Shown here piece after piece: positions 9,941 through 38,778 of a stretch of 64,000 nucleotides of DNA; positions within the stretch are counted from its first letter, which is position 1, and every line of letters begins with the position of its first letter. The notes under the pieces are model-generated. The model saw only the letters and a list, made by a program, of their open reading frames with translations. It did no database searches and was not told the DNA's origin. The stretch is from Desulfosporosinus acididurans. GTDB lineage: Bacteria > Bacillota > Desulfitobacteriia > Desulfitobacteriales > Desulfitobacteriaceae. Location: NCBI RefSeq assembly GCF_001029285.1, contig NZ_LDZY01000004.1:248001-312000 (forward strand), written 5' to 3'. Both the position numbers and the translations under genes were made by a program.

Positions 9941-10416
9941 TTGGGTATGTGGACATCAAAAAGGCTGTCATTGATCAGATGAATGCCAAAGTAAAAAATA
10001 TCAGCGTACTAGCCAATGAAGAGCTGAGCGGGTTTAAACCACCTGCTTTTTTTGTCCAAATTATCCCTGTTACTGACACGCCTTATCTAGACTATGAAGA
10101 GAAATTATTAACCGTAAACATACATTATTTCTCGGCAGAAAAGACGGATTTGGCCAATCTAAAGATGCTGGATCAACTTAATCTGACGTTCTTCAATCTC
10201 ATTAGAATTGGAGAACGGACAATTACCCTTCAGCACAAGAGGCATCAAATAATCGACAATGTTTTACAGTTTAAGTTTGACCTAGAATTCCTTAACGATG
10301 TCGACGTTGTGCAAATTAATGGCGAATGGGTCCTTATCACGCGTCTCGATGACAGCCTTGGCTATACGGAGGACACCGTGCAGCTTGTTCAAGATATAGA
10401 AATTAAGGAGGTATAA
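9937..10416 (+). CDS. Phage tail terminator family protein
   Basis: 159 residues placed between the gp10-like protein and the sheath gene, where PBSX-like contractile phages encode a tail terminator. The ending FDLEFLNDVDVVQ... with a beta-rich C-terminus fits the tail terminator family (DUF6838-type). It should cap the tail tube and fix tail length. Confidence 0.72.
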   Translation: MIGYVDIKKAVIDQMNAKVKNISVLANEELSGFKPPAFFVQIIPVTDTPYLDYEEKLLTVNIHYFSAEKTDLANLKMLDQLNLTFFNLIRIGERTITLQHKRHQIIDNVLQFKFDLEFLNDVDVVQINGEWVLITRLDDSLGYTEDTVQLVQDIEIKEV

Positions 10417-10418
10417 TG

Positions 10419-11483
10419 ATGGGCCTGCCACAGATCACTATTCGGTTTCAGACACTAGCAGTAACCGCAATTACCAGGAGCGCAAGAGGCATCGTCGCCT
10501 TGATCCTAAAAGACTCCACAAAGACGACTTTCGACACGAAGATTTATGCGGATGTATCTGAAGTAGCCTCTGCCGATTGGACTGCAGCTAATTTGGATTA
10601 CATTCAAAAAACCTTTCTCGGAACGCCATCCAAGGTTATCGTTGAAAGAGTGGCAGCCGATGCCGTAGATTATAATGCTGCCTTATCCAGGCTGGCTAAT
10701 AAGAAATGGAATTACCTTGCTGTTCCGGGAATTGTTATAGCAGATGTAGCGAATATCTCGTCGTGGATTAAGTCGCGTCGTGACGTAGACAGAAAGACGT
10801 TTAAGGCCGTTTTGCCGAATAGCGTTTCCGACCATGAGGGAATCATTAATTTTTCCACCGATGACATTGTAGTTGATGGAAAAACCTATACGACAGCGGA
10901 ATACTGCTGCAGGATAGCGGGTATTTTGGCCGGGCTTCCATTCACTCGAAGTTCAACGTATTATGCCCTCCCGGAGGTCGATAGCATTACCGAAACAGAA
11001 ACTCCAGATGCCGATATTGATGCCGGAAAGCTGATTTTGATCAATGACGGTGAGAATATTAAGATTGGCCGTGGTGTAAATAGCTTAACCACGACAACAG
11101 TCTCCAAGGGTGCCAAGTTCCAAAAGATCAAAATCATGGAGGCTATTGACCTTATGCGCGATGATATTCGTGATACCTTTGATTCCGAGTATGTCGGACA
11201 AGTCAATAACTTCTATGACAACAAAGTACTGTTCATAACTGCCATAAATGCTTATTTCAAGCTTCTCCAGAGGGATGAGGTATTGGATCCGAGCTTCACG
11301 GCATTGGCCGAGATTGATGTTGACGCCCAGGCGTTATATCTTCAGTCAACTGGTCTGGATACAAGCGCATTAACTGCTGCCCAGATTAAAGAATATAACA
11401 CTGGAAGTCATGTCTTCGTTAAAGCGAGCGGGAGCCCCTTAGATGCCATGGAAGACCTAGACTTCTCAATGCTAATAGTGTAA
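10419..11483 (+). CDS. Contractile tail sheath protein (XkdK-like)
   Basis: About 354 residues. Two ATGs occur at 10416 and 10419. The second sits seven bases from AAGGAGG and is preferred. Sheath features include ITIRFQTLAVTAITRSARGIVALIL at the N-terminus, VPGIVIADVANISSWI, and the C-terminal domain with TFDSEYVGQVNNFYDNKVLFITAINAYFK. Presence of a sheath makes this a myophage. The gene order sheath-tube-chaperone-tape measure matches PBSX. Confidence 0.93.
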   Translation: MGLPQITIRFQTLAVTAITRSARGIVALILKDSTKTTFDTKIYADVSEVASADWTAANLDYIQKTFLGTPSKVIVERVAADAVDYNAALSRLANKKWNYLAVPGIVIADVANISSWIKSRRDVDRKTFKAVLPNSVSDHEGIINFSTDDIVVDGKTYTTAEYCCRIAGILAGLPFTRSSTYYALPEVDSITETETPDADIDAGKLILINDGENIKIGRGVNSLTTTTVSKGAKFQKIKIMEAIDLMRDDIRDTFDSEYVGQVNNFYDNKVLFITAINAYFKLLQRDEVLDPSFTALAEIDVDAQALYLQSTGLDTSALTAAQIKEYNTGSHVFVKASGSPLDAMEDLDFSMLIV

Positions 11484-23288: not shown

Positions 23289-23684
23289 ATGGCAACAATT
23301 ACGCTTGGAACACTGAGGGATCTATGGGAAAACGTATCAGATTGGGTCAAGGGAGTAGATACCACGTCAAAGCCAAAGGTCTCATCCATCCAGGTCGGAG
23401 AGACAACGATTGCTACACCGTTAACTGGGACTAAGACGGTCACGGCGACAGCAGCTGAGGTCTTTGCCGGCGCTTCTGCCAAGAGCGGAAGATCCCGGAT
23501 GGTTATCAAGAACGAGGACCCTGCTCTCCGCTTTAGGATAGGATCATCCAGCGTTACCCAACAGGGTGGGTACCCGGTTGAGCCGGGTGCGGCGGTAGAG
23601 CTTCAATTTGACCCCTTGGTCAGCGTCCCGACTTATGCCATTAGCGAAGGGGCCAGTATTCAAGTATCCGTTTGGGAAGTATAA
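23289..23684 (+). CDS. Fibre-cluster protein, paralogue A
   Basis: 131 residues. The last ~85 residues (from PLTGTKTVTATAAEVFAGASAKS to ISEGASIQVSVWEV) are a beta-rich domain that recurs in the next gene. The N-terminal ~45 residues contain TLRDLWENVSDWVKGVDTT. It probably forms a small trimeric or jelly-roll module near the receptor-binding tip. Function is inferred from neighbours only. Confidence 0.62.
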   Translation: MATITLGTLRDLWENVSDWVKGVDTTSKPKVSSIQVGETTIATPLTGTKTVTATAAEVFAGASAKSGRSRMVIKNEDPALRFRIGSSSVTQQGGYPVEPGAAVELQFDPLVSVPTYAISEGASIQVSVWEV

Positions 23685-23717: not shown

Positions 23718-24242
23718 TTGCCCAAAACACGCGCTAATATGCTTTCGACAGCCGCACGCCAATTGGTCGGTAAATCACAAGTCTACGCCTTGCTTGTAGA
23801 TTCTAGCGGAAATGCAATTCTAGACTCAGAGGGAAACGAACAAATAGCAGAGCTGGAAGCCGTAGGAGGCAGGCTGAAGGTTGACATCGGGGCCGCAGCG
23901 GTCGGGGGTAAAATACCTGTCGTTACAGAAATAAATTCTGTGTCCTTAACGGACCTGGAGACGACAAACGCTCCCCCGCTTACCGGTTTAAAAACAGTCA
24001 TTGCCACGGCTGCCGAGGTCTTCGCGGGAGCGTCAGCTAAGTCTAATCGTCGAATGCTGTTCATTAAGAACACGGATCCAGTACTCCGCTGCAAGGTCGG
24101 AGCCTCCGGAGTCAGCCAACAAACGGGTACTTCTCTTGAGCCTGGAGCAGCGGTTGAAATTAAGTTTGATCCAGGGATTTATGTCCCTATTTTCGCTATT
24201 AGTGAAGGTGCGAGTATTAAAGTGGAGGTGTGGGAAGTATGA
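23718..24242 (+). CDS. Fibre-cluster protein, paralogue B
   Basis: 174 residues from TTG 23718, after GAGAGGAGGTG. The C-terminal ~85 residues match the domain of the preceding protein almost position by position (PLTGLKTVIATAAEVFAGASAKS ... ISEGASIKVEVWEV). The N-terminus differs (STAARQLVGKSQVYALLVDSSGNAILDSEGN). Tandem duplication of the domain with replacement of the N-terminus is the simplest explanation. Confidence 0.62.
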   Translation: MPKTRANMLSTAARQLVGKSQVYALLVDSSGNAILDSEGNEQIAELEAVGGRLKVDIGAAAVGGKIPVVTEINSVSLTDLETTNAPPLTGLKTVIATAAEVFAGASAKSNRRMLFIKNTDPVLRCKVGASGVSQQTGTSLEPGAAVEIKFDPGIYVPIFAISEGASIKVEVWEV

Positions 24243-24451
24243 CCTATGAATTTATAAATGATGGAGACACGACCATAATTAAAGTCAACTTTTCAGATGA
24301 GGGTGTCGAGCTGAGCGGCGAGACTTCGGTAAAAGGTGATGAATCTGCAGCGGTTGCTTATCTCCCGGTGTTTGAGTCTGACTTGCGAAGAAACTTTGCA
24401 GAGAAGTTTCCGGTACCTGAAATTCCGGCAGAAAATGGAGGAATGATTTAA
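24239..24451 (+). CDS. Small acidic protein upstream of the DGR target
   Basis: 70 residues from ATG 24239, which overlaps the preceding stop as ATGA. GGAGGTG lies about ten bases upstream. Beta-rich and acidic, it ends one base into the start codon of the variable protein, so the two are probably translationally coupled. Function unknown. It could be a chaperone or binding partner of the variable protein. Confidence 0.6.
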   Translation: MTYEFINDGDTTIIKVNFSDEGVELSGETSVKGDESAAVAYLPVFESDLRRNFAEKFPVPEIPAENGGMI

Positions 24452-25641
24452 TGAAATACATTAGTGGACCTTATACGCAAGGGCAGTTATTAAAAGAGAT
24501 CAATGATATTGAGATTGCACTTACCGAGAGATTCCAGCGGAGCGGCGTAATAACTGATGCGGCAGAGCAGCGTTCCTGGCGCGAACGCGTGCAGGACGCG
24601 AGCCTTGCTAGAAATACCGTTATGTATGACGATCAAGGTAATCCATCAGTGATGGTTGTATTTCCAGTACAGACTCTCGCCGATCTCGGAGTTGGAACTT
24701 CCCAAAAGTTTCATCCGGCGTTTACCGTTAATAACTCTACAAAACCGATTCTTCACATTTCAAAATATCAAAATATCACTGTTGGAGCTGGAGCCACGTT
24801 ACGGGCACTAAGCCTTAAACGCATGGATCCGGGCAATAGTATCAATTTCGATAATGCTCTTCTAGCCTGTAAACAAAAGGGTGCTGGTTGGCATTTAATG
24901 ACTAATGCAGAATGGTCCGCTATCGCTCTTTCCACAAAGAAGCAGGGCTTTATGCCTCGAGGAAATAATAGCTATGGAACGGACACCAGTGTTGCATCGG
25001 AAAAGGGCATTGCCAGTTATTTAGATCCAACTCCAGCTAAGACTGGGCGAGTGCTTACTGGATCTGGGCCAATTTCCTGGGCTCATGACGGTAGTCCCTT
25101 TGGGATCTATGACTTGAACGGCAATGTTTGGGAATGGGTCGGAGGCTTGCGCCTTAATAATGGTGAGATCCAAATTCTCGTCGATAATAATGCTGCGGAT
25201 AACACAAAGGACCAATCCGCTGCAAGTGCAGAGTGGAAAGCGATTCTGCAAGATGGGTCGCTCGTTGCCCTTGGAACAGATAGCACACTCAAATACGATT
25301 ATACCGCTGCCCCTACAGCCAATTCCGCAAGCATCGAACTAGCTACATCAATTGTGAACGCACAAGTGGATGATACTCCGTATGGGTCAAAAGCTTTTGA
25401 AGCCTTAACGGCTCATGCTGGCGTCACTGTTCCTGATATAGCAAAAGCTCTTGGTCTATTCCCGATTGATTCTGCCCATGGTGGTGACCTTTTTCAATTC
25501 CGAAATAACGGCGAACGCCTCCCGTATCGTGGCGGCAACTGGGGCTACGGCTCCAACGCTGGCGTGTTCTATTTGATCCTGAACAACCCCCGGTCGAACG
25601 TGTACACGAGCCTCGGGTTTCGCTCCGCTTTCGTCCTGTAA
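24451..25641 (+). CDS. DGR variable protein, C-type-lectin/FGE-like receptor binder
   Basis: 396 residues. The N-terminal ~100 residues are a helical anchor-like region. From about residue 130 the protein has the formylglycine-generating-enzyme/C-type-lectin fold, shown by WHLMTNAEWSAIA, IYDLNGNVWEWVGG and the ending LGFRSAFVL. Its last 37 codons are the DGR variable repeat. Seven codons there (residues 365, 366, 374, 376, 385, 387, 388) differ from the template, and all changes are at template adenines. Tail location makes it the likely receptor-binding protein of the phage, similar in role to Mtd of Bordetella phage BPP-1 but with a different N-terminus. Confidence 0.93.
   Translation: MKYISGPYTQGQLLKEINDIEIALTERFQRSGVITDAAEQRSWRERVQDASLARNTVMYDDQGNPSVMVVFPVQTLADLGVGTSQKFHPAFTVNNSTKPILHISKYQNITVGAGATLRALSLKRMDPGNSINFDNALLACKQKGAGWHLMTNAEWSAIALSTKKQGFMPRGNNSYGTDTSVASEKGIASYLDPTPAKTGRVLTGSGPISWAHDGSPFGIYDLNGNVWEWVGGLRLNNGEIQILVDNNAADNTKDQSAASAEWKAILQDGSLVALGTDSTLKYDYTAAPTANSASIELATSIVNAQVDDTPYGSKAFEALTAHAGVTVPDIAKALGLFPIDSAHGGDLFQFRNNGERLPYRGGNWGYGSNAGVFYLILNNPRSNVYTSLGFRSAFVL
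25519..25631 (+). repeat. DGR variable repeat (VR)
   Basis: 113 bp that match the template repeat at 26110-26222 except at eight positions. All eight are A in the template (A to G three times, A to T four times, A to C once). The 3' end (about 25613-25631) is adenine-free and identical in both copies, as expected for the initiation-of-mutagenic-homology segment. Confidence 0.97.
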
Positions 25642-25670
25642 ATCTGGAATCTAAAACCCTGTAATCTGTT

Positions 25671-25690
25671 GGGCGCTCGATAGAGCGCCC
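25671..25690 (+). promoter_or_regulatory. DGR target-recognition hairpin/cruciform, also possible terminator
   Basis: Perfect 8-bp stem GGGCGCTC/GAGCGCCC around the tetraloop GATA, 39 bases downstream of VR. DGR targets studied in BPP-1 need a stem of 7-10 bp with a GRNA loop just after VR, and GATA fits GRNA. A TCTTT tail means it may also terminate transcription of the variable gene. Confidence 0.75.
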
Positions 25691-25729
25691 TCTTTCGACC
25701 CCAAAGAATGGCAAAAGGAGCCTGCAGCA

Positions 25730-26071
25730 TTGGAAGAACTTAAAATTTTGCAAAAAACTTACGACATGATCCTTTACGGCAACATATGCCTTAGGCAATT
25801 TCCAAAGAGCGAAAAGTATGCGCTCGCATCGGATATTAAAGAATCTATGTATGCGTTGCTTCGACTCATCATCACGGCCAACAAACGTTATTACAAGAAA
25901 ACAACCCTCCAGGACATTGACGTTGAAATCGATACCTTGCGCACGCTAATACGTTTATCGGCAGACAAAGAGTTCATGTTTTTACCGCTCCGCAAATATG
26001 AAAACTGGAGTCGAATGCTTGCCGAGATAGGCAAGATGCTCGGTGGTTGGATGAAATCCGTTAAACAATAA
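25730..26071 (+). CDS. avd: DGR accessory variability determinant (Avd)
   Basis: 113 residues, helical, from TTG 25730 with AAAGGAG nine bases upstream. Features such as LKILQKTYDMILYGNICLRQFPKSEKYALASDIK and the C-terminal YENWSRMLAEIGKMLGGWMK match the four-helix-bundle Avd family (S23-like). Avd forms a pentamer that binds reverse transcriptase and the template RNA and is needed for mutagenic cDNA synthesis. Order target-avd-TR-RT matches BPP-1. Confidence 0.92.
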   Translation: MEELKILQKTYDMILYGNICLRQFPKSEKYALASDIKESMYALLRLIITANKRYYKKTTLQDIDVEIDTLRTLIRLSADKEFMFLPLRKYENWSRMLAEIGKMLGGWMKSVKQ

Positions 26072-26109
26072 AACAGTTATCACACTCTATGGGGAATGGG
26101 CCATATAAG

Positions 26110-26222
26110 CTCCCGTATCGTGGCGGCAACTGGAACAACGGCTCCAACGCTGGCGTGTTCAATTTGAACCTGAACAACCCCCGGTCGAACGTGAACACGA
26201 ACATCGGGTTTCGCTCCGCTTT
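26110..26222 (+). repeat. DGR template repeat (TR) and template RNA core
   Basis: 113-bp template with 25 adenines, lying in the non-coding gap between avd and the reverse transcriptase. It reads through the VR frame as NWNNGSN...FNLNLNN...VNTNIGF, rich in AAC/AAT codons, which adenine mutagenesis can turn into many residues but not stop codons. Flanking sequence to about 26390 should belong to the same template RNA. Confidence 0.96.
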
Positions 26223-26395
26223 ACCCTCAACTTAGCCAGAAGTTTGCATTCTATGGAATTCAATCCAGAGCAATGAGGACAAAGGGGTCCATTTCCCTTC
26301 CGCAAGGAAAAATATTTAATTGCCATGACCGTCGCGAGTAGAATTCGAAAGAGGCCACGCATGGCGTCGACACAAAAAGGAAGGACCTGAAATTA

Positions 26396-27475
26396 TTGCA
26401 TAAGATTCGCGGCCTATATGAGAAAATTTATGATTTTGAAAATCTACATCAGGCTTACCTTGAGGCTCGTAAGGGAAAGAGGTACCGCATCGAGGTTATG
26501 AAATTCACGAATCACCTCGAGGAAAACTTGATTCAAATTCAGAACGAACTTATCTGGAAGACCTATGAAGTTGGTAAATATCGAGAATTCTTTGTCAATG
26601 AGCCCAAAAAGCGTCTTATCATGGCATTGCCCTTTAAGGATAGGGTGGTGCAATGGGCAATCTACCAAGTGTTGAATCCGTATTTCGAAAAGGGTTTTAT
26701 TCAGGACTCATATGCCTGCCGAGTCGATAAAGGGACGCATAGAGCCGTGAATAGGCTGCAGTACTGGTTGCGCTACATGCACCGTCGGCACTCGCAATTC
26801 TATGCGCTCAAACTAGATATATCTAAGTATTTTTATCGAGTTGACCATAACGTACTTATGGCAATCCTCCGCAGACGCATTGGCGACGAAGATCTACTCT
26901 GGTTATTAGAAACTATCGCTCGATGTGAACATACGAAGTTTGGTGTTCCGCTTGGAGATCATCAATTTGAGTCAGATCGAGTTGGCGGGGTTGGGATGCC
27001 GATCGGCAACCTGACGAGCCAAATGTTTGCGAATCTGTATCTCAATGAGCTGGACCAGTACGCTAAGCAAACCCTTCACGTTAAGTTTTATCTTCGCTAC
27101 ATGGACGATATTGTAGTACTTCATGGGAACAAAAAGTATCTCTGGGCACTTAAGGAGCAAATCGATGAATTCGTGGTGCACCAACTCCACCTTCAGCTAA
27201 ACAATAAAACTATGGTTCGCAGCGTCTCGCAAGGTATCGAGTTTGTTGGATTTCGCGTCTGGCCAACTCATAAGAAGCTCCGGAAAAAGAGTGCTCTTAA
27301 GATGAAACGTAGGTTGCGATATCTGCAACGTTCGTATGCCAGAGGAGAGATAGGCATGCAGGAAGTAAACAACAGCGTCCAATCTTACCTTGGCATCCTG
27401 AAGCATTGCAATAGCCATAATCTTAAGACTAAGTTATTACGGTCCCTCACATTTGTTAGGGATAATTTGAATTAG
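26396..27475 (+). CDS. DGR reverse transcriptase
   Basis: 359 residues from TTG 26396, with AAGGAAGGA about ten bases upstream. The RT palm motifs are visible: metal-binding D141 in YALKLDISKYFYRV, then GMPIGNLTSQMFANLYLNELD (200-220), where GNLTSQ replaces the PQGxxxSP of other RTs and is diagnostic of DGR enzymes, and YMDD at 235-238. The thumb region follows with GIEFVGFRVWPTHKKL. It copies TR RNA with adenine-specific errors into cDNA that replaces VR. Confidence 0.96.
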   Translation: MHKIRGLYEKIYDFENLHQAYLEARKGKRYRIEVMKFTNHLEENLIQIQNELIWKTYEVGKYREFFVNEPKKRLIMALPFKDRVVQWAIYQVLNPYFEKGFIQDSYACRVDKGTHRAVNRLQYWLRYMHRRHSQFYALKLDISKYFYRVDHNVLMAILRRRIGDEDLLWLLETIARCEHTKFGVPLGDHQFESDRVGGVGMPIGNLTSQMFANLYLNELDQYAKQTLHVKFYLRYMDDIVVLHGNKKYLWALKEQIDEFVVHQLHLQLNNKTMVRSVSQGIEFVGFRVWPTHKKLRKKSALKMKRRLRYLQRSYARGEIGMQEVNNSVQSYLGILKHCNSHNLKTKLLRSLTFVRDNLN

Positions 27476-28067: not shown

Positions 28068-28490
28068 ATGCCCGTAAAGGAGGCGATGGATCCCAGGATG
28101 GAAAACACAAAAAGAATAGCCGTAACGGTCGGAGCGATATTGTCTTGGCTTGTTGGTGGACTGGATTATTTATTTCAGACTCTCGTGATTTTTATCGTAA
28201 TCGATTATGCAAGCGGGGTAGCAGCTGCATGGATTGGGGGAGAACTTAGCAGTTCTCGAGGCCTGCGAGGAATTGCTAAGAAAACATTTATCATAACCCT
28301 GGTTGTTGTGGCGGATAAGATCGACTTCATGCTCGGCGGCTCAGACTTCTGGCGTAATGCAGTGCTCTGGGCGCTCATCGTCAACGAGACATTCAGTATT
28401 TTAGAAAACGGAGGGCGCATGGGCGTTAAAATACCTAAGGTGTTCTATAAGGCTCTTGCAGTCCTTCAGGATAAAAATTCTGCCGAATAG
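28068..28490 (+). CDS. Phage holin (toxin-secretion/phage-lysis holin family)
   Basis: Up to 140 residues. Core GAILSWLVGGLDYLFQTLVIFIVIDYASGVAAAWIGGELSSSRGLRGIAKKTFIITLVVVADKID with two to three membrane helices and the VIDYxxG signature of the holin_4_1 family. The start is uncertain: ATG 28068 is the longest, AAAGGAGG lies inside it at 28076-28083, and ATG 28086 or 28098 could be used, which would allow a holin/antiholin pair of starts. It makes the membrane lesion that releases the amidase encoded next. Confidence 0.88.
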   Translation: MPVKEAMDPRMENTKRIAVTVGAILSWLVGGLDYLFQTLVIFIVIDYASGVAAAWIGGELSSSRGLRGIAKKTFIITLVVVADKIDFMLGGSDFWRNAVLWALIVNETFSILENGGRMGVKIPKVFYKALAVLQDKNSAE

Positions 28491-28503
28491 GAGGGGGAAG
28501 ATT

Positions 28504-29322
28504 ATGCCAAGAGGAGTAATTAACTATGGCCACGGACCGAAGAACGATGGAACCTATGATCCCGGAGCTGTCGGACCGGATGGATATCAAGAGGCCGCAG
28601 AGACTTGCATTATTGGAACAAAGATAGCCCAGAAATTACAAAATAATGGATGGGACATACTTGCTATTCAGGATGGCGATCTTAAAGATATCACGGATCA
28701 AGCAAACTCATTTAAGCCGGATGCTTTTCTTTCGATCCACGCCAATTCTGCCGCTCCTGAAGCTCACGGGATTGAAACATACGCCTTAGCGCCAGGCGGA
28801 GTGGGCGAAAAGATTGCCCGGGAAATTCAAAAGGAACTTGTTTTGGCGACGGGGCTTACGGATCGGGGAGTAAAATTCGCGAACTATTGGGTGCTTGGTA
28901 AGACTATAGGCTATCCGGCAGTATTGACCGAGATAGCCTTTATTTCAAACCCAGTTGAAGAGGCATTAATGCATAAAGACTCATGGAATGAAACGGTAGC
29001 AGAAGCGATTTGTAAAGGTTTTTCCAGAGCCTTGGGTGTAGCGTATGGCGAAACAAAGAAGGATGGGGTTGGCAAAGTGTTAGATGTTGCAGTTTTACTT
29101 TATACCAAAGAGGATTACTGGTCCGGCGCAGATGTTGCAGTCAAGAATGGTGATTGTGCTATATTTATTCGTCCTGACGATCATTCGGTGCCTAAGGAAG
29201 CGATGAGCGCCCAAAAGCTGATTGTTGTTGGCGGACCTACTACGGGACATCCAAATGAAATATTGTTATCCGGGAAAACAAAGTATGATACTGCCCAAGC
29301 GGTCGGTAAGTATTTGGGCTAG
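28504..29322 (+). CDS. Endolysin: N-acetylmuramoyl-L-alanine amidase with cell-wall-binding repeat
   Basis: 272 residues, start ATG 28504 after AGGAGGGGG. Residues 1-180 form an amidase_3 domain with zinc ligands in YGHGPKND, a glutamate in GYQEAAE and SIHANS, and TEIAFISNPVEE. Residues ~190-270 resemble a cell-wall-binding type 2 repeat (VLLYTKEDYWSGADVAVKNG...VVGGPT), common in Clostridia surface proteins. It cleaves host peptidoglycan at lysis. Confidence 0.92.
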   Translation: MPRGVINYGHGPKNDGTYDPGAVGPDGYQEAAETCIIGTKIAQKLQNNGWDILAIQDGDLKDITDQANSFKPDAFLSIHANSAAPEAHGIETYALAPGGVGEKIAREIQKELVLATGLTDRGVKFANYWVLGKTIGYPAVLTEIAFISNPVEEALMHKDSWNETVAEAICKGFSRALGVAYGETKKDGVGKVLDVAVLLYTKEDYWSGADVAVKNGDCAIFIRPDDHSVPKEAMSAQKLIVVGGPTTGHPNEILLSGKTKYDTAQAVGKYLG

Positions 29323-31047: not shown

Positions 31048-31908
31048 TTAATTGCGTTTTGTTTTACCGAGTTCCAGTTCGTGGACCCGAGCCGTTAATG
31101 ATTGATTCTTCTCCTGGAGGGCATCTAATTTGGCGGTATATTCATCCTTCAATTTGGTCGTGGCTTCAAGTACGCGATTATTGGCTTCCATACTAGCCGC
31201 ATGGATCTGCAGATCGGCCATCTTCTGGACGGAAGCTAATTCGTTAGCATGGCTCTTTTCCAGGGATACAATGGACTGCTCTTTAATTTCGATTGCATGA
31301 TGGTGTTGAATGGCCTCGGAGCGGAGCTTCTCAATTTGACGCTGAGATTCTTCATGGAGATAGCGGAGTCTCTGGACTTCGGCCTCAAGCTCATCTACAG
31401 CCTTGATCCTATGTTCAAGGGATTCGTTCTGGCTAGTCAGAAGATCAATGGTAATTCGATTCGACTTGTTGACCGCTTCGAGCTCGTTGTTTCTTTCGGC
31501 CAGTTCTTTCATTTGCTCTTGGATTTCAGCTAGTTCCAACCGGGACTTATCGCGTTCTTCTTCAGCTTGAAGTCGGCCATTCTCTACCTGGTCGACAACG
31601 CTTTGATGTACTCTCTTCTCTTGCTCGAGTCCTTGAGTGTAGCTGTTTTTCAGGTCACGGAGCTTTTGCACCATGTTACTGAAAATCGACTCGGCGTGAG
31701 ATAGGTGATAACGCAGCTGCTGCATGTCTTCGGTCTGCTCGATTTCACTTCCGGACAGCAAATTAGCCTTGAATTGAGTGACCATGGCCGAGAAGAGATC
31801 CTTTTGGCTTAACCCGGTGCGCTCCACTAATGCGGAAACGTCTGCCATGACCTCATCGTTGGTACGAACGGAGTATAGCGGTGGCTTATTTTTCGCTTCG
31901 TCAGACAT
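31048..31908 (-). CDS. KfrA-like coiled-coil DNA-binding protein
   Basis: 286 residues. The N-terminal ~55 residues (SVRTNDEVMADVSALVERTGLSQKDLFSAMVTQFK) form a small helical DNA-binding-type domain. The rest is an uninterrupted coiled-coil (Glu/Gln/Leu heptads). This is the layout of the plasmid autoregulator KfrA, although sequence relationship cannot be shown here. Start 31908 has GGAGG upstream. The promoter carries two copies of ATGTATACAT, suggesting autoregulation. It may act in DNA segregation or silencing in the adjacent plasmid-like module. Confidence 0.68.
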   Translation of the reverse strand: MSDEAKNKPPLYSVRTNDEVMADVSALVERTGLSQKDLFSAMVTQFKANLLSGSEIEQTEDMQQLRYHLSHAESIFSNMVQKLRDLKNSYTQGLEQEKRVHQSVVDQVENGRLQAEEERDKSRLELAEIQEQMKELAERNNELEAVNKSNRITIDLLTSQNESLEHRIKAVDELEAEVQRLRYLHEESQRQIEKLRSEAIQHHHAIEIKEQSIVSLEKSHANELASVQKMADLQIHAASMEANNRVLEATTKLKDEYTAKLDALQEKNQSLTARVHELELGKTKRN

Positions 31909-31930
31909 AATTGATGCCTCCTTAAAATTA

Positions 31931-31940
31931 ATGTATACAT
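31931..31940. promoter_or_regulatory. Palindromic operator ATGTATACAT, copy 1
   Basis: Perfect 10-bp palindrome between promoter and start codon of the coiled-coil gene. An identical copy lies 58 bp away. Confidence 0.65.
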
Positions 31941-31988
31941 TTAATCCTTTATTCATGCTATGTTTACATTGGTTAACGTGTTTACATA

Positions 31989-31998
31989 ATGTATACAT
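31989..31998. promoter_or_regulatory. Palindromic operator ATGTATACAT, copy 2
   Basis: Identical palindrome placed at the predicted transcription start, immediately downstream of the -10 box, where bound repressor would block initiation. Confidence 0.7.
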
Positions 31999-32000
31999 GA

Positions 32001-32029
32001 ATAATAGCATGGAAATTCAGTAACGTCAA
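32001..32029 (-). promoter_or_regulatory. Sigma-A promoter of the coiled-coil gene
   Basis: On the minus strand TTGACG (32029-32024), 17-base spacer and TATTAT (32006-32001), close to consensus. Confidence 0.82.
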
Positions 32030-32043
32030 GGAAGGAGTGGCAT

Positions 32044-32078
32044 AAAAAATAGCCCCCCAGCTCGCAAGCTGAAGGCTT
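32044..32078 (-). terminator. Terminator of the leftward 32-38 kb unit
   Basis: Minus-strand hairpin with CAGCT/AGCTG core (loop TGCG) extended by AGCC/GGCT, followed by a run of T (32049-32044). Confidence 0.72.
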
Positions 32079-32094
32079 ATAATAACGGCATATT

Positions 32095-33138
32095 TTAATC
32101 ATTCTGCGATATTATGCTAATTGTATCTGTCTTATAATCTGATTTGGCGGTTACATTTTGCAGAATCAATCCTCCGAAAGCATTTTTTGCCCGATAGGAC
32201 ATTTTGATTATTAAATAATCTCCTCTGTCCCAATATTTTGTCTCGACATGCTCAAAGCTTTTGGGATCGTTTAAGTTTTTCTTTAGCAAATCTACCAAAT
32301 ATCTATTCGATCCATCCCAAGCACTAAACTGACTATCAACCCATTTCTTATAAGCGGCCTTAGCATCTGCAGCGGCCTTCTCTTCGGCCTCTTTCTTCTT
32401 TACTGCAGCTTCTTCTGTCGAAAGTCTTGCAAAATCAGTGCTGATGTCTGCTACTTCGGAATTAGATAGATTTTTATACTTCTCCTTTATTTTATCAAAT
32501 TGATCTCTCTGTTGGGTATCAAATGAAGCATAAGACTTTTTCAATAATTCTTTATCTGAATCTGTAATTTTTAATGCGTCGGCTTTTTCTTTTGCTATTT
32601 GCTCCGGAGTTTTTGCAGGTTCTGAAACTGTAGATGATGCACTTGTCGTCGATGCGGAAGATCCGCTGCCTGTAAAGGTACCGACCACTTTACCAATAAG
32701 TAAGATATAGACTATTGTGGCCACAGCCATTTTCCATTTAGTCTTAGACCGAAATCCAAGAATCTTCCTCCACCAAGGTCTTTCAATGATCTGAACTGAA
32801 ATATTCGTATTTGATTGTAATAATGGAACTAAGTCCTTTCCTTTTTCCAAAATAGTGATTGTGCAGCCATTAGAAACTCCCTTAAGGGCCAATACTGTTT
32901 TCTGGGCATAAAAATCTACAGATGCCTCCGAGAAATTTCCCCATTGATTGGTCTGTTGTAATACTGGTTGAACCTTGTCGAACTTATAGATGTTTACACC
33001 CTCTGCATGAAAAGCTCCATAATGAATTCCTGGTGAACCTAGCACTTTTGCAATAAACCACGTATTCATGCCTGCTGAAGTACAAAGGTTCATGATTGAC
33101 TCTTTTGCTTTTTGGTCGTTATTTTTCTTCCTGCTCAT
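32095..33138 (-). CDS. Single-pass membrane protein of unknown function
   Basis: 347 residues. Residues 1-130 form a beta-rich cytoplasmic domain, a membrane helix lies at about 136-155 (VATIVYILLIGKVVGTF), then a Ser/Thr linker, a charged helical region rich in Lys/Glu/Ala, and a C-terminal domain of ~70 residues (WDGSNRYLVDLLKKNLNDPKSFEHVETKYWDRGDYLIIKM...). The C-terminal domain occurs at the end of various membrane-anchored proteins in Firmicutes. RBS GGAGGAA precedes ATG 33138. Last gene of the leftward module. Confidence 0.65.
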   Translation of the reverse strand: MSRKKNNDQKAKESIMNLCTSAGMNTWFIAKVLGSPGIHYGAFHAEGVNIYKFDKVQPVLQQTNQWGNFSEASVDFYAQKTVLALKGVSNGCTITILEKGKDLVPLLQSNTNISVQIIERPWWRKILGFRSKTKWKMAVATIVYILLIGKVVGTFTGSGSSASTTSASSTVSEPAKTPEQIAKEKADALKITDSDKELLKKSYASFDTQQRDQFDKIKEKYKNLSNSEVADISTDFARLSTEEAAVKKKEAEEKAAADAKAAYKKWVDSQFSAWDGSNRYLVDLLKKNLNDPKSFEHVETKYWDRGDYLIIKMSYRAKNAFGGLILQNVTAKSDYKTDTISIISQND

Positions 33139-33230
33139 TTAAAAAGTTCCTCCAATCAAAATAATTGTTTTAGCTTTCCATGTTATCTATCATTTTCCTG
33201 CTTTGTGACATTCTTAATGGTTTTTCGACT

Positions 33231-33947
33231 TTACAAGGCCAATAAGGGCGCTAATTTCAGAATCATCAAGAGGACTCCACCGAGCATAAGTGCATTTCCT
33301 GCCGCATGCAATTGCTGCTGATCATGGGGCTGATCCGGAACTGTTATCTTATCCTCGGGCAACGGTGCCTCTTTCTTATTAACATCCCTAATCAGTTCGT
33401 TATCGGTTAAGTGCCGTTTTACGGTATCCATGAACTTATCAAAGTTGTCATTATCTTTGAAGTGATCATTGATAATTGACTTTGGGATCTTAATCTCTTC
33501 AGTTGTATTCCCGACCTTGCGCTTATAGACAAAGGGATCATCTGTTACCGGCTGTTGCTTAGGCGTTTCCCCAGGCTTCATTTTGTCCTGAATCCTCTTC
33601 CGTAGTTTGTAAACAACCCAATTACCGATATTATTGCCAAGCATACCACTTTGAAAGTTCTTGGCTAGGATATAACCGTGATCTTCTGGTACTGCAATCA
33701 CTTTTAGTTGCGCACCTAGCAATCTATCCCACTGGGCCATTGTGTACGCTCCGAGTTCTGGATGTGATTCCCACCATAAGAGTCCGCTTGGTTGAACGGG
33801 GTTATTTGTTTGGTAGGGGTAGAGGTAAACTACTTGAGAGGCTGCACTTGCTTGGAGAGGGTTAGCTAGGGCGAAGCCTGCAATGATCATCAGAATAGAG
33901 AGGGCAAGAGTACGCTTGATAGAGGACTTTTTGAGGACTAAGAACAT
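33231..33947 (-). CDS. Secreted/membrane-anchored protein of unknown function
   Basis: 238 residues with a clear signal peptide (RTLALSILMIIAGFALANP, likely cleavage after ASA near residue 36), an extracytoplasmic domain with tryptophans (SGLLWWESHPELG, GNWVVYKLRKRI) and a C-terminal hydrophobic helix (GNALMLGGVLLMILKLAPLLAL). This is compatible with a cell-envelope component of a DNA-transfer or surface-exclusion system, judged from its neighbours. GGAGG lies ten bases upstream of ATG 33947. Confidence 0.65.
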   Translation of the reverse strand: MFLVLKKSSIKRTLALSILMIIAGFALANPLQASAASQVVYLYPYQTNNPVQPSGLLWWESHPELGAYTMAQWDRLLGAQLKVIAVPEDHGYILAKNFQSGMLGNNIGNWVVYKLRKRIQDKMKPGETPKQQPVTDDPFVYKRKVGNTTEEIKIPKSIINDHFKDNDNFDKFMDTVKRHLTDNELIRDVNKKEAPLPEDKITVPDQPHDQQQLHAAGNALMLGGVLLMILKLAPLLAL

Positions 33948-33948
33948 A

Positions 33949-34086
33949 TTATCGACCTCCTTCTAATAAACCTTTTGACTGCAGGAACATTTCCTCTGCA
34001 TCCAGAACGGAAGCGACCAAGATGAAGTGAATGCCGGTTATTTTAGCTATATAGAAAATCATTTCATCCATGTCGATTTCCATCAT
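33949..34086 (-). CDS. Small 45-residue protein
   Basis: Acidic N-terminus (MEIDMDEMIFYIAKITGIHFILVASVLDAEEMFLQ) that may be an amphipathic or membrane-associated helix. Its ATG overlaps the upstream stop (ATGA) and GGAGG lies just before a second in-frame ATG at 34083. The stop abuts the next gene's start region. Coupling on both sides supports a real gene. Function unknown. Confidence 0.6.
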   Translation of the reverse strand: MMEIDMDEMIFYIAKITGIHFILVASVLDAEEMFLQSKGLLEGGR

Positions 34087-34397
34087 TCAGCCTCCAATCT
34101 ATCCCGCAATTCTTCTAATACATATATTAGTCTTTCGGCGGTTTCTAGATCTGGCTTCAAGAAAATGAGGGATATTCGTAAGGATTTGAGCAGAAATATG
34201 AGCTTCCAGTACCAAAGCAGAGCCCTAATCCTGTCCATATCTATTAGATTCTCGCCGCCAGTGAACTCGGAAATTAACTCCTTGAACCAGTGCTTTCTTC
34301 TGTACTCTTCAATGATCCGGGCAAAATTCTTCTTGATCTCAAGGAACAACCTCTCTTGTTCATCAATTATAGGAACGCTGTTAATTTTCACTCGCAT
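34083..34397 (-). CDS. Small helical hypothetical protein
   Basis: About 104 residues, basic and helical, with a hydrophobic stretch (LLWYWKLIFLLKSLRISLIFL) that could be one membrane helix. ATG 34397 follows AGGAGG. It belongs to the tightly packed leftward module between the M23 peptidase and the secreted protein genes. No family is recognised. Confidence 0.6.
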   Translation of the reverse strand: MRVKINSVPIIDEQERLFLEIKKNFARIIEEYRRKHWFKELISEFTGGENLIDMDRIRALLWYWKLIFLLKSLRISLIFLKPDLETAERLIYVLEELRDRLEAE

Positions 34398-34412
34398 ATT
34401 CAATCCTCCTCG

Positions 34413-35129
34413 CTACTTCAAATACGCCATTGGATCAACTGTCTTACCACCAAAGCGGACCTCAAAATGTAGATGCGGGCCGGTGGAGTTTCCAGTATCT
34501 CCGGATAATGCGATTACATCTTTGGCAAAAACATTCTTGCCTTGTTTTGTTTTAAGTTCCGAGCAATGGGCATAAAGCGTTTGCCAACCGCCACCGTGGT
34601 CAATCATTACATAGTTTCCATAAATCCCGGATGGATCTACCCCGGTCTCTCGTACCCAACCGTCACGGGCTGCCATAACGGAAGTCCTTTCGGGCGTCGC
34701 TATATCGATCCCATGATGATCGGGAGGGCTAAAGCTTTGTGATATCACAACTTTCCCGGATATGGGCCATTCAAGATGTCCGCCAGTAAACATTTCGGCT
34801 AAGGATTTTGCTGGTAGTTTTGGATTTGAGCCAAAGTTTACAATAGAGGAATTTCCTATGTTGCCAGTTACTTCGTTTAATTTATTTCGTGCATCACCTA
34901 CAGAATTGATGGCATTAGTTAGGCTTTGGACATCGTCTCGTACTTCGTTATAATGTACACCCATTCTGGCGACAGCAGGACCTGCGTGTTGCAGAGTTGA
35001 TATAGATACCATAAGAATTAAGAAAACCTTCACCATTTGGGCTCGATGTTTATTACCCAAGGCAATAAGGGTGTAATATCCAAACATTCCACCGATGATT
35101 ATTATGAAAATCTCAGTCAGCCAGGCCAT
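34413..35129 (-). CDS. Membrane-anchored M23 (LytM) peptidase
   Basis: About 238 residues. Two N-terminal hydrophobic helices (WLTEIFIIIIGGMFGYYTLIAL and VKVFLILMVSISTLQ), a helical linker, then a LytM domain with zinc-binding HxxxD in DHHGIDIATPE and HLHFE in GPHLHFEVRFGG. Start ATG 35129 follows AGGAGGTG. Peptidases of this type open peptidoglycan for envelope-spanning DNA-transfer machines or for virion entry. Placement beside FtsK-like and relaxase-like genes favours transfer. Confidence 0.88.
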   Translation of the reverse strand: MAWLTEIFIIIIGGMFGYYTLIALGNKHRAQMVKVFLILMVSISTLQHAGPAVARMGVHYNEVRDDVQSLTNAINSVGDARNKLNEVTGNIGNSSIVNFGSNPKLPAKSLAEMFTGGHLEWPISGKVVISQSFSPPDHHGIDIATPERTSVMAARDGWVRETGVDPSGIYGNYVMIDHGGGWQTLYAHCSELKTKQGKNVFAKDVIALSGDTGNSTGPHLHFEVRFGGKTVDPMAYLK

Positions 35130-35141
35130 GATCGTCACCTC

Positions 35142-35384
35142 CTAGTTTAAGGTGCCTTTAGTTGACCATGTTACATACTTGCCAATTAGAATTCCTAGAT
35201 AAGTAAGGAGTATTAATACTGCTGCTATTCCCGATCCGGCCTTGAGGAACGGTATTCGATCATTACGATTTGTGGAATGGAATGTTTGCTCAACCAAGAA
35301 CTCTCCAATGGTTAGGGCTAGAAGTAGTGTTACAATAAAACCTGGTTTACCTGGTCCAAAGACTTCAACTACGGCTGCGCCCAT
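35142..35384 (-). CDS. Small membrane protein
   Basis: About 80 residues with two or three hydrophobic segments (KPGFIVTLLLALTIGEFLV and IAAVLILLTYLGILIGKYV), start ATG 35384 after GAGAGGTG. Reminiscent in size and placement of TcpB/VirB2/VirB3-type small membrane genes of transfer modules, but not identifiable. Confidence 0.62.
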   Translation of the reverse strand: MGAAVVEVFGPGKPGFIVTLLLALTIGEFLVEQTFHSTNRNDRIPFLKAGSGIAAVLILLTYLGILIGKYVTWSTKGTLN

Positions 35385-36076
35385 TGCACACACCTCTCTT
35401 TCAATTCATCAAGGGTTAATAATTCGTAAGGAATGCCGAGTGGATTTTCGTTGACTAATCGCTTAAGTATGGGTTTCTTGGGTCCGGTAGTAATTACTGT
35501 TAGCGTGGGTATTTTCTGATCTCGCAACTCTACCCACCAGTAGGGCCTAATTCCTTGAGCTTTCAACTCTATGATATTTTGGAAAAGAGATGTGTACTTG
35601 GGCATCTTATCGAATTCATTACCACTTTCGTGTCGGTGGAACTCTCCGAAGAATAAATGAGGTTTAACTGAAGAGCGTAGAGACACAAATGCATCAGGCC
35701 GGACAAATGGCTCGTATTCCTTTGGCTCGCCTTTAAATTTTAATTCTGCGCCAGTTCTTGTAGCCCAGTTCTCAAACCATACATATAGCCAGTTAACCCC
35801 TATTCGATGCTCTATTTGATCGGGGCGCTTCATGTCAGCAGGCCAGTAGAAGTAAGGTTCATATTTGGAAAATCTATCTCGTTTAATTCTAGGTGTTTTC
35901 TGCTTCTTCTTAATGCCATTTCCGGATAAGACTCGTAGACGACGATAACACATATCATCATTTTTTTGCATTTTAAAAACCGAAATACGAATTTGATCTG
36001 TCGTCAAGCAGTAACGGTCCTCCAGGAGCGCGAGTATTTTTTGGTCCCGGTAATAACCCTTTTTGTGGTTTAACAT
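35369..36076 (-). CDS. Replication-relaxation family protein
   Basis: About 235 residues. N-terminal winged-helix region (RDQKILALLEDRYCLTTDQIRI...YRRLRVLSGNGI) and a nuclease-like fold with HRIGVNWLYVWFE, RPDAFVSL and FFGEFHRHESGNEFDKM, the pattern of the Replic_Relax family found on plasmids and integrative elements, proposed to help DNA relaxation for replication or transfer. ATG 36076 follows AAAAGGAG. Its start overlaps the FtsK-like gene by about 100 bases in another frame. Confidence 0.78.
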   Translation of the reverse strand: MLNHKKGYYRDQKILALLEDRYCLTTDQIRISVFKMQKNDDMCYRRLRVLSGNGIKKKQKTPRIKRDRFSKYEPYFYWPADMKRPDQIEHRIGVNWLYVWFENWATRTGAELKFKGEPKEYEPFVRPDAFVSLRSSVKPHLFFGEFHRHESGNEFDKMPKYTSLFQNIIELKAQGIRPYWWVELRDQKIPTLTVITTGPKKPILKRLVNENPLGIPYELLTLDELKERCVQWAQP

Positions 36077-37358
36077 CGCTTGGCTCACTCCTTTTTACTA
36101 CAAAACGCGGTTGTCCTAATTCGGCAAGAAGTTTATTAAGCTGAGGCTCTTCTTTTGGGCTTAATGGAAAATAGAATGTTTGCATTTCGACCTCGCAATC
36201 CCATTGAAATATTGCTCTGCCTTTGATATTGGGTAGATAAGAGGCCGAAGGGTTGTCGAGTATTATTTGTGAGTCAGTAGAAGTTGATGCCCTGAAAGAT
36301 ACTTTACCGTCAAAGTTAGCCTTTAGATCACCGAATTTTACTTTTTCAAATATAGTGCTGCTGGGTCTCTGGGTAGATCCGATTACAATTACCCCAAATC
36401 CAGCACCTACAGCAAGGATGGTTTTAAGCATTTCTTGACTTGCAGTATCTTGAAGCCTATGAAGTTCGTCTATAACCAAGACGATAAACGGCAACTCATA
36501 ACCTTTGTAAATATAGTCCTGAATTTTTCTAACGCGAGCCTTAGCGAATAAACCTTCTCTCCTTTTAATTTCTTCGGTAATCTTTAAGAGCATAAATACG
36601 GCTCCCTTAATATCCGTTACCCTCCAAGCCCATTCATCAAACTCCGGAAATTCAATTCTTTTTAAGTCAACGATGCAGATATAGGATTTTTGCTTATTCT
36701 TTGAGCTGGCCAAAAGAAGGCTATAAACAATGCAATGAATTAGGTTTGATTTACCGTAACGAGTTTCACCTGCAAAGAACCAGTGAGTATCAGCTATATC
36801 CTTGATAATTGGACCCCTAGAGCTGATGCCGAAAGGTACAGGCAGATAATGATCTTGGTACTCATTGGGATCGAATTGATAATGGTACATCGTCTTAAGC
36901 TGCAGATTGGAAAGCCATACTTTGATTGCCTTTCCCTCTCGCTCGATGAGACAAGAACCCATTACCGCATCCGCAAATCTCTGTTGTTCCTTGAGAAAAT
37001 CCGTATACCTAATTCCCGGCGGAATGTGAATAATAAAAAACCAACCTTCGTTTCTCTCGGTTTCTAATGGTTCATTTCCAAAGAATTTTTTAATAAACTC
37101 GGTAGATTGACGAAGTTTTTCGCGCTTACTTAATTTTTGTTCTAGATATGGCATTCCATTTATGGTAAGTAGTTTCTTCTCGATAATCATAGGAACCATG
37201 TCCTCGTGTCGCCAGATAATCTTTATTGAGTCCTCGAATGCAGCCGGAATTGAGTTTTTTGGTAAATGATTTACGGCATAGAGGATTTGTTCTCGCGTCT
37301 CAGAGATAACCTTGCCGAGTCCCAGGTCCAAGTTATTCACCGCCTTCAGGATGGTCAA
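35973..37358 (-). CDS. FtsK/HerA-type DNA translocase-like ATPase
   Basis: Up to 461 residues. Walker A GETRYGKS at 197-204 and Walker B (VLVIDELHR) at 294-301, with SFRASTSTDSQIIL and a C-terminal beta region, as in FtsK/SpoIIIE-like coupling ATPases of plasmids and ICEs. Residues 1-180 lack a clear domain. The start is uncertain, because TTG 37358 lies inside iterons, while GTG 37340 has GAAGGCG upstream. It should pump DNA for transfer together with the relaxation protein downstream. Confidence 0.82.
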   Translation of the reverse strand: MTILKAVNNLDLGLGKVISETREQILYAVNHLPKNSIPAAFEDSIKIIWRHEDMVPMIIEKKLLTINGMPYLEQKLSKREKLRQSTEFIKKFFGNEPLETERNEGWFFIIHIPPGIRYTDFLKEQQRFADAVMGSCLIEREGKAIKVWLSNLQLKTMYHYQFDPNEYQDHYLPVPFGISSRGPIIKDIADTHWFFAGETRYGKSNLIHCIVYSLLLASSKNKQKSYICIVDLKRIEFPEFDEWAWRVTDIKGAVFMLLKITEEIKRREGLFAKARVRKIQDYIYKGYELPFIVLVIDELHRLQDTASQEMLKTILAVGAGFGVIVIGSTQRPSSTIFEKVKFGDLKANFDGKVSFRASTSTDSQIILDNPSASYLPNIKGRAIFQWDCEVEMQTFYFPLSPKEEPQLNKLLAELGQPRFVVKRSEPSDVKPQKGLLPGPKNTRAPGGPLLLDDRSNSYFGF

Positions 37359-38728: not shown

Positions 38729-38778
38729 TTACCTTGGGGTGGTAGAGGTCGCACGTTCAAATCGTGTCGCTCCGACCA
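38729..38778 (+). other. 3' half of tRNA-Pro(GGG): probable prophage attachment site
   Basis: Anticodon arm TTACC-TTGGGGT-GGTAG (anticodon GGG), variable loop AGGTC, T arm GCACG-TTCAAAT-CGTGT, 3' acceptor strand CGCTCCG, discriminator A and CCA. The 5' half (acceptor strand, D arm) is missing. Partial 3' tRNA copies mark the distal end of elements integrated in tRNA genes. The intact gene should lie beyond the left edge of the prophage. Confidence 0.8.

Follow-up and report, generated by a model that had tools for sequence, protein, structure and literature searches.

A diversity-generating retroelement in a Desulfosporosinus acididurans prophage, with one target in the tail module and a probable second target in the early module

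The stretch of DNA considered here is a 64-kb window of the Desulfosporosinus acididurans contig NZ_LDZY01000004.1 (C4:248001-312000) and, as read from its sequence, contains at 24451-27475 a diversity-generating retroelement (DGR) of the Brt/Avd type that is complete and seems to be intact; coordinates without a contig prefix are positions in this window. The sequence-only reading of the window had described a full cassette in the order of phage BPP-1, and each part was found intact in its place. Briefly, the cassette consists of an open frame for the variable protein T1 (24451..25641, + strand, 396 aa), which belongs to a C-type-lectin (CLec)/FGE-like fold family; a variable repeat of 113 nt at the 3′ end of T1 (VR1, 25519..25631, +); a target-recognition hairpin/cruciform with an 8-bp GC-rich stem and a GATA loop (25671..25690, +); an open frame for the accessory variability determinant, avd (25730..26071, +, 113 aa, TTG start); a template repeat of 113 nt in direct orientation to VR1 (TR, 26110..26222, +); and an open frame for the DGR reverse transcriptase (RT; 26396..27475, +, 359 aa, TTG start), in which the DGR-specific motifs GNLTSQ and YMDD were confirmed. 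The cassette itself is an ordinary DGR of the BPP-1 type.

The repeats carry the adenine signature of such elements. Of their 113 sites, TR and VR1 disagree at 8, each of them an adenine in TR; adenines account for 25 of the 113 nucleotides of TR, and the pattern has a chance of ~2e-6. TR has 14 variable, adenine-containing codons, including ten AAC and one AAT; no stop codon is reachable by adenine mutagenesis, and ~5.5e14 peptides are possible. The hairpin of VR1, GGGCGCTC-GATA-GAGCGCCC, has a perfect 8-bp stem, and its stem length and loop match the consensus reported for DGR hairpins, i.e., a GC stem of 7-10 bp with a GRNA loop downstream of the VR (PMC3240598); as drawn here, it lies ~39 nt past the end of VR1, slightly outside the published 4-34. 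Furthermore, VR1 is not invariant among kin: two related prophages, whose RTs are 81% and 86% identical to the present one, have VRs that differ from it at 19 and 16 sites, of which 17 and 10, respectively, are on TR adenines, and TR is largely conserved.

The identity of the two DGR proteins is supported by family matches. Avd scores 129 bits against NF033474 (cut-off 80) and 120 bits against Pfam bAvd (cut-off 40), and a sequence search yielded no PDB match for it. The RT matches phrog_1423 at 1.5e-144, and among PDB entries it comes closest to the DGR RT 8ub7 (1.8e-56), the top-ranking group II RT being at 2.5e-24. In a tree composed of DGR RTs and 11 group II intron-type RTs of the same genus, the RT sits with the phage DGR RTs, BPP-1 Brt among them, and a 100/100 branch separates it from all 11 group II intron-type RTs; the grouping with group II introns that the sequence-only reading had named as a refuting outcome did not occur. 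It is extremely unlikely that the element has lost activity or decayed, or that it is no DGR at all, but a group II intron or retron RT accompanied by chance repeats. A weak match of the RT to a group II RT model, though far below the cut-off, speaks for that explanation; the match to a retron model is far below its cut-off as well. The explanation is contradicted by the RT tree, the PDB match, the Avd equivalog, the intact frames and the restriction of differences to adenines at two VRs.

The second of these VRs emerged from a search with TR of the whole 4.64-Mb genome, which returned 3 places only: TR, VR1 and a further 113-nt repeat (VR2, C4:236908-237020, L004:8908-9020) located ~11 kb before the first base of the window. 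VR2 differs from TR at 10 sites, 10/10 on TR adenines, and terminates an open reading frame of 320 aa on the rightward strand (T2, C4:236080-237042, L004:8080-9042); it is followed, at the same spacing as in VR1, by a hairpin with a 7-bp stem and a GATA loop (C4:237060-237077). T2 is upstream of T1 by 36.4 kb (start to start) and 37.4 kb away from the RT, and both targets are inside the same prophage. On the rightward strand, T2 comes after a CI-like repressor, an HTH gene in the Cro position and an XRE regulator, and precedes DUF5131, PcfJ and replication-type genes. Pattern matching detected a strong promoter of consensus type (TTGACA-17-TATAGT) within the divergent region of the repressor and the Cro-position gene, and no + strand terminator in the scan ahead of T2. 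L006 was considered as an independent strain, was found to be 100% identical over 21 kb and was taken as the same strain rather than as a replicate. Where VR1 and VR2 of this prophage are both mutated, the same base occurs at 5 of 5 sites (~2.1 expected), unlike in other phages; this may reflect gene conversion between the VRs, a single cDNA event that reached both, selection, or chance. A common ligand of T1 and T2 was rejected as a general signal, the same-base excess being gone over ten phages (24 sites observed, 23.2 expected).

Taken as a whole, these features are explained, with a high degree of confidence, by a temperate myophage whose Brt/Avd-type DGR serves two targets: T1, probably at the tail tip, and T2, which may be an early, non-virion protein. 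Mutagenic retrohoming is the established mechanism in BPP-1 and, by analogy, probably operates in this prophage: RT and Avd would reverse-transcribe the TR RNA, inserting random bases opposite template adenines, and the cDNA would replace a VR that is recognized by its 3′ identity together with a GRNA-loop hairpin. VR1 and VR2 both bear these marks in their sequences, and both differ from TR on adenines only. The single TR would diversify T1 in the tail module and, in trans, T2 in the early module; the N-terminal extension of T1 would attach this protein to the virion, and T2, which has neither that extension nor an export signal, would act off the virion.

T1 scores above the Pfam FGE-sulfatase cut-off and matches phrog_2889. 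It is the final gene of the tail module before the cassette, after the baseplate and DUF4815 genes, and has an N-terminal extension of ~54 aa that is missing from T2. Because of this gene position and its homology and fold family, T1 is probably a receptor-binding tail-tip protein, like Mtd in BPP-1, and the same two lines of evidence suggest that the phage may retarget its receptor via T1. The earlier proposal that the DGR acts on a tail protein is thus probable for T1, whereas the picture of a single target is incomplete, as the same TR serves T2, for which a place in the tail is unlikely.

The arrangement of T1 in the cassette and T2 at a distance of 36-39 kb was also found in six Lachnospiraceae prophages, in which T2 precedes the replication initiator. 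In Faecalibacterium phage Lagaffe, T2 sits among regulator, integrase and recombination genes; in Dulem virus 37, it is near regulators and the integrase; and in Mu-like contigs, it is flanked by transposase B and a Mor-like activator. T2 is thus in the early module in every phage backbone examined (at least four kinds of phage). With T1 and T2 labeled by location (avd/RT adjacent or not, a few T1 rows with no RT in the record being assigned by their tail-end position), a maximum-likelihood tree from which the VR was removed parts 36 T1 from 14 T2 rows by one 100/100 branch, and this split persists after dropping N-termini, long branches and near-copies. T2 as a recent duplicate of T1 was rejected, since the trees part by lineage and not by phage; T2 appears from these trees to be an ancient T1 paralogue that forms a separate lineage common to several unrelated phages.

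Within this lineage, each T2 resembles the template of its own phage. Over ten two-target phages, differences are on adenine sites in 111/113 cases for VR1 and in 113/118 for VR2, and Fisher tests on these phages count sites and kin phages as independent, so that the P-values are indicative only. The non-A identity of VR2 is 0.95-1.00 to its own TR and ~0.5-0.78 to the TRs of unrelated phages. GRNA-loop hairpins follow both VRs in 9/10 of these phages; in Lagaffe, none was found at either VR. Because distant scaffolds carry VRs renewed from one TR, T2 would be written in trans. That VR2 is instead a fossil, T2 being a former target whose diversification has ended, is very improbable. Contig G064, which has both targets and no RT, is a point in its favor, but VR2 equals TR at every non-A site despite the ancient T1/T2 split, an agreement that requires VR2 to have been copied from TR recently; the T2 reading frame and the VR2 hairpin are preserved; and across 18 genomes, Lagaffe shows variation in each of its two VRs (PMC11792537).

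Several members of the family depart from the common form. The Lagaffe-type T2s (L171:31798-33060, which is Lagaffe, and L225:7924-9252) have an extra C-terminal domain of ~90-120 aa past the VR, which the other T2s lack. The 47.8-kb contig L118/L208 (IMG/VR 3300006217_003255) carries T1 at C1:2637-3635 and T2 at C1:35684-36628, with no RT match in the contig and no avd next to T1; the VR peptide of this T1 has diverged from the usual NPRS motif, which may reflect loss of the DGR. Furthermore, two tandem target-like genes occur in L152 and L153 (IMG/VR 3300033752_000214 and 3300033802_000252; contigs of 65 kb and 149 kb), and no RT match was obtained in either contig.

The predicted model of T2 (pLDDT 82, pTM 0.87) is closest by far, among solved structures, to the Thermus aquaticus prophage protein TaqVP (PDB 5vf4; Z 39.6 over 314 residues), and the next matches are FGE, TvpA and Mtd (Z ~9-11). 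These matches support a CLec-fold variable protein with a C-terminal VR, and T1 is in the same Pfam and PHROG families. Neither a signal peptide nor a hydrophobic transmembrane (TM) stretch was seen in the T2 sequence, and the residues before the shared core number 2-8 in most T2 members and 17-60 in T1. From these features and the position of its gene, we infer that T2 is a soluble and hypervariable binding protein that is made early and acts off the virion. Its target would most likely, though on a weaker footing, be a host factor that changes rapidly, for example part of a defence system; because of the position of T2 and the published parallels in Quimbyvirus and four gut prophage species, counter-defence may be considered. 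It is accordingly only as a tentative proposal, rather less than evenly favored, that T2 is put forward as an early cytoplasmic hypervariable binder, diversified by the same DGR as the tail tip, that would serve as an evolvable inhibitor directed at host defence or at another rapidly changing host factor and constitutes a separate lineage across unrelated backbones. The DUF5131 gene beside T2 matches the PADLOC candidate models PDC-M41B/M30B, a weak hint; a DNA methyltransferase is near T2 in L208; and no known anti-defence gene was identified in the T2 neighborhoods.

Two other roles of T2 were weighed. T2 might be a second receptor-binding protein of the virion, two homologous targets together broadening the host range, as was the interpretation of the Lagaffe_CP pair (PMC11792537). 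T1 and T2 are alike in fold and family, T1-type proteins are tail-linked and homologous target pairs have been published, yet this role is rather unlikely, as T2 belongs to the early module in every backbone examined and to a lineage of its own, is devoid of the N-terminal extension of T1, and shows no overall tendency to share substitutions between VR1 and VR2 that would signal a common ligand. Alternatively, T2 might work extracellularly, released at lysis or displayed on lysogens, where it would occupy receptors and block superinfection or re-adsorption to debris. A binding fold without virion attachment would suit this role, as would the Mu-like contig L077, in which T2 is immediately upstream of the endolysin gene; the absence of a signal peptide or TM stretch, the early rather than lysis position of T2 in most phages, and its location here downstream of the repressor-controlled region, which implies that it is probably silent in the lysogen, render it improbable.

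Several points weigh against an early, non-virion T2 of separate lineage. Early expression is suggested by gene order and the consensus promoter scan, T2 could enter virions, and the comparison of VR2 within the species comprises the prophage of this strain alone. The six Lachnospiraceae phages are related and therefore do not constitute independent cases, the T1/T2 tree is unrooted, and start codons are uncertain for the Lagaffe-, Dulem- and RUG10817-type T2s, so that the short N-terminus is clean only elsewhere. Furthermore, T2 was absent from Caloramator in the search, and most T1-bearing virus records are without T2, many of these records being fragments; for both reasons, T2 would be an accessory gene. 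Among 45 genomes of the same family, T2 was found in none besides the present one, and G024 matched with T1 only; the contigs of G024 and G030 stop short of the expected place of T2. A tblastn search with T2 gave no Bacteroides phage match.

Compared with BPP-1 (mtd-avd-TR-brt), the present system is alike in gene order, in Avd, in RT clade (40% identity over 288 residues), in the adenine signature, in the 8-bp stem with a 4-nt GRNA loop, and in the 3′ VR of a CLec-fold protein. In contrast, the record of BPP-1 lists one VR, whereas a second target is present here in the early module, and T1 is TaqVP/FGE-like and not orthologous to Mtd in sequence. TaqVP itself, the nearest solved structure to T2, is the target of a cassette in BPP-1-like order, and the consulted portion of its report mentions no second target (PMC6328139). 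Two-target phage DGRs are already known (PMC10743442, PMC11792537), and remote targets were undetectable in the survey of Roux et al. 2021 (PMC8144416). Lagaffe (PMC5883640, PMC11792537) likewise pairs a CLec target in the cassette with a distal homologue, and the latter falls in the T2 lineage of the present prophage; the phage backbone is different, the integrase is of the IS30 type and no GRNA hairpin was found at either VR. As far as the consulted portions of the reports describe them, the Quimbyvirus DGR (PMC8008677) and the DGRs of four gut prophage species with a distal second VR (PMC12629997) have a target in the structural module and a distal one near defence/counter-defence genes that was proposed to be non-structural; these are mostly Bacteroidota gut phages, were compared with T2 by description only, and are presented in those portions with no conserved distal-target lineage. 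Distal second targets have thus been published for Quimbyvirus, Lagaffe and the four gut prophages; the conserved T2 lineage is a generalisation that is apparently new, an orthologous early-module T2 lineage not having been found described in the open-access literature.

Tandem TR arrays occur in the DGR cassettes of three related virus contigs, L085:10895-12210 (IMG/VR 2884097670_000001), L087:10890-12215 (2850047002_000002) and L140:10895-12165 (3300010262_000137), whose avd-RT gaps hold at least 3-4 differing tandem TR-like copies, 139-150 nt apart. The VR of L140 is a TR3 to TR1 to TR2 mosaic that explains 17/17 informative non-A sites, and that of L085 is a TR3 to TR4 mosaic that explains 19/19; the VR of L087 is explained by TR1 alone. 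The order-permutation P for the VR mosaics is 0.003 for L085 and 0.0006 for L140. These mosaics look like the product of combinatorial template switching or serial partial conversion, and no paper on mosaic VRs from tandem TRs was found in a literature search.

The prophage comprises 55,235 bp (C4:231544-286778) and is bounded by a 49-bp direct repeat, the left copy being in an intact tRNA-Pro(GGG) gene (C4:231544-231592, L004:3544-3592) and the right copy, attR (38730..38778, +), repeating the 3′ end of that tRNA. Its left end encodes an integrase and the CI-like repressor, which is of the S24 type. Sheath (10416..11483, +), tail tube and baseplate J genes are present and thus indicate a contractile tail, in agreement with the myophage assignment of the sequence-only reading. 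The lysis module after the cassette includes a holin (28068-28490) and an endolysin, an N-acetylmuramoyl-L-alanine amidase (28456..29322, +). Just upstream of T1, two small open reading frames of the tail module (23289-23684 and 23718-24242) share at their 3′ ends a 105-nt direct repeat of 70% identity and are probably a gene duplication. The leftward block from the antirepressor to attR (31048-37358, - strand) gave matches to Replic_Relax, FtsK/SpoIIIE and M23 peptidase and also encodes several unknown proteins; it resembles a mobilisable element inserted into the prophage. The host was earlier taken for a sulfate-reducing or dehalogenating spore-former: as its dsrA scores 543 bits (cut-off 393) and a gene read as SpoIVA-like adjoins the prophage, a sulfate- or sulfite-reducing spore-former is likely, and the genome gave no match in a search for reductive dehalogenases in which control queries were equally silent.

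Phage DGRs are mostly seen as receptor-switching devices, and distal targets have so far been described singly. The T2 lineage extends over lambda-like, Lagaffe-like, Lachnospiraceae and Mu-like phages and, in every phage with an identified TR, appears to be written from that phage's own template, and this family makes the role of non-structural DGR targets directly testable.

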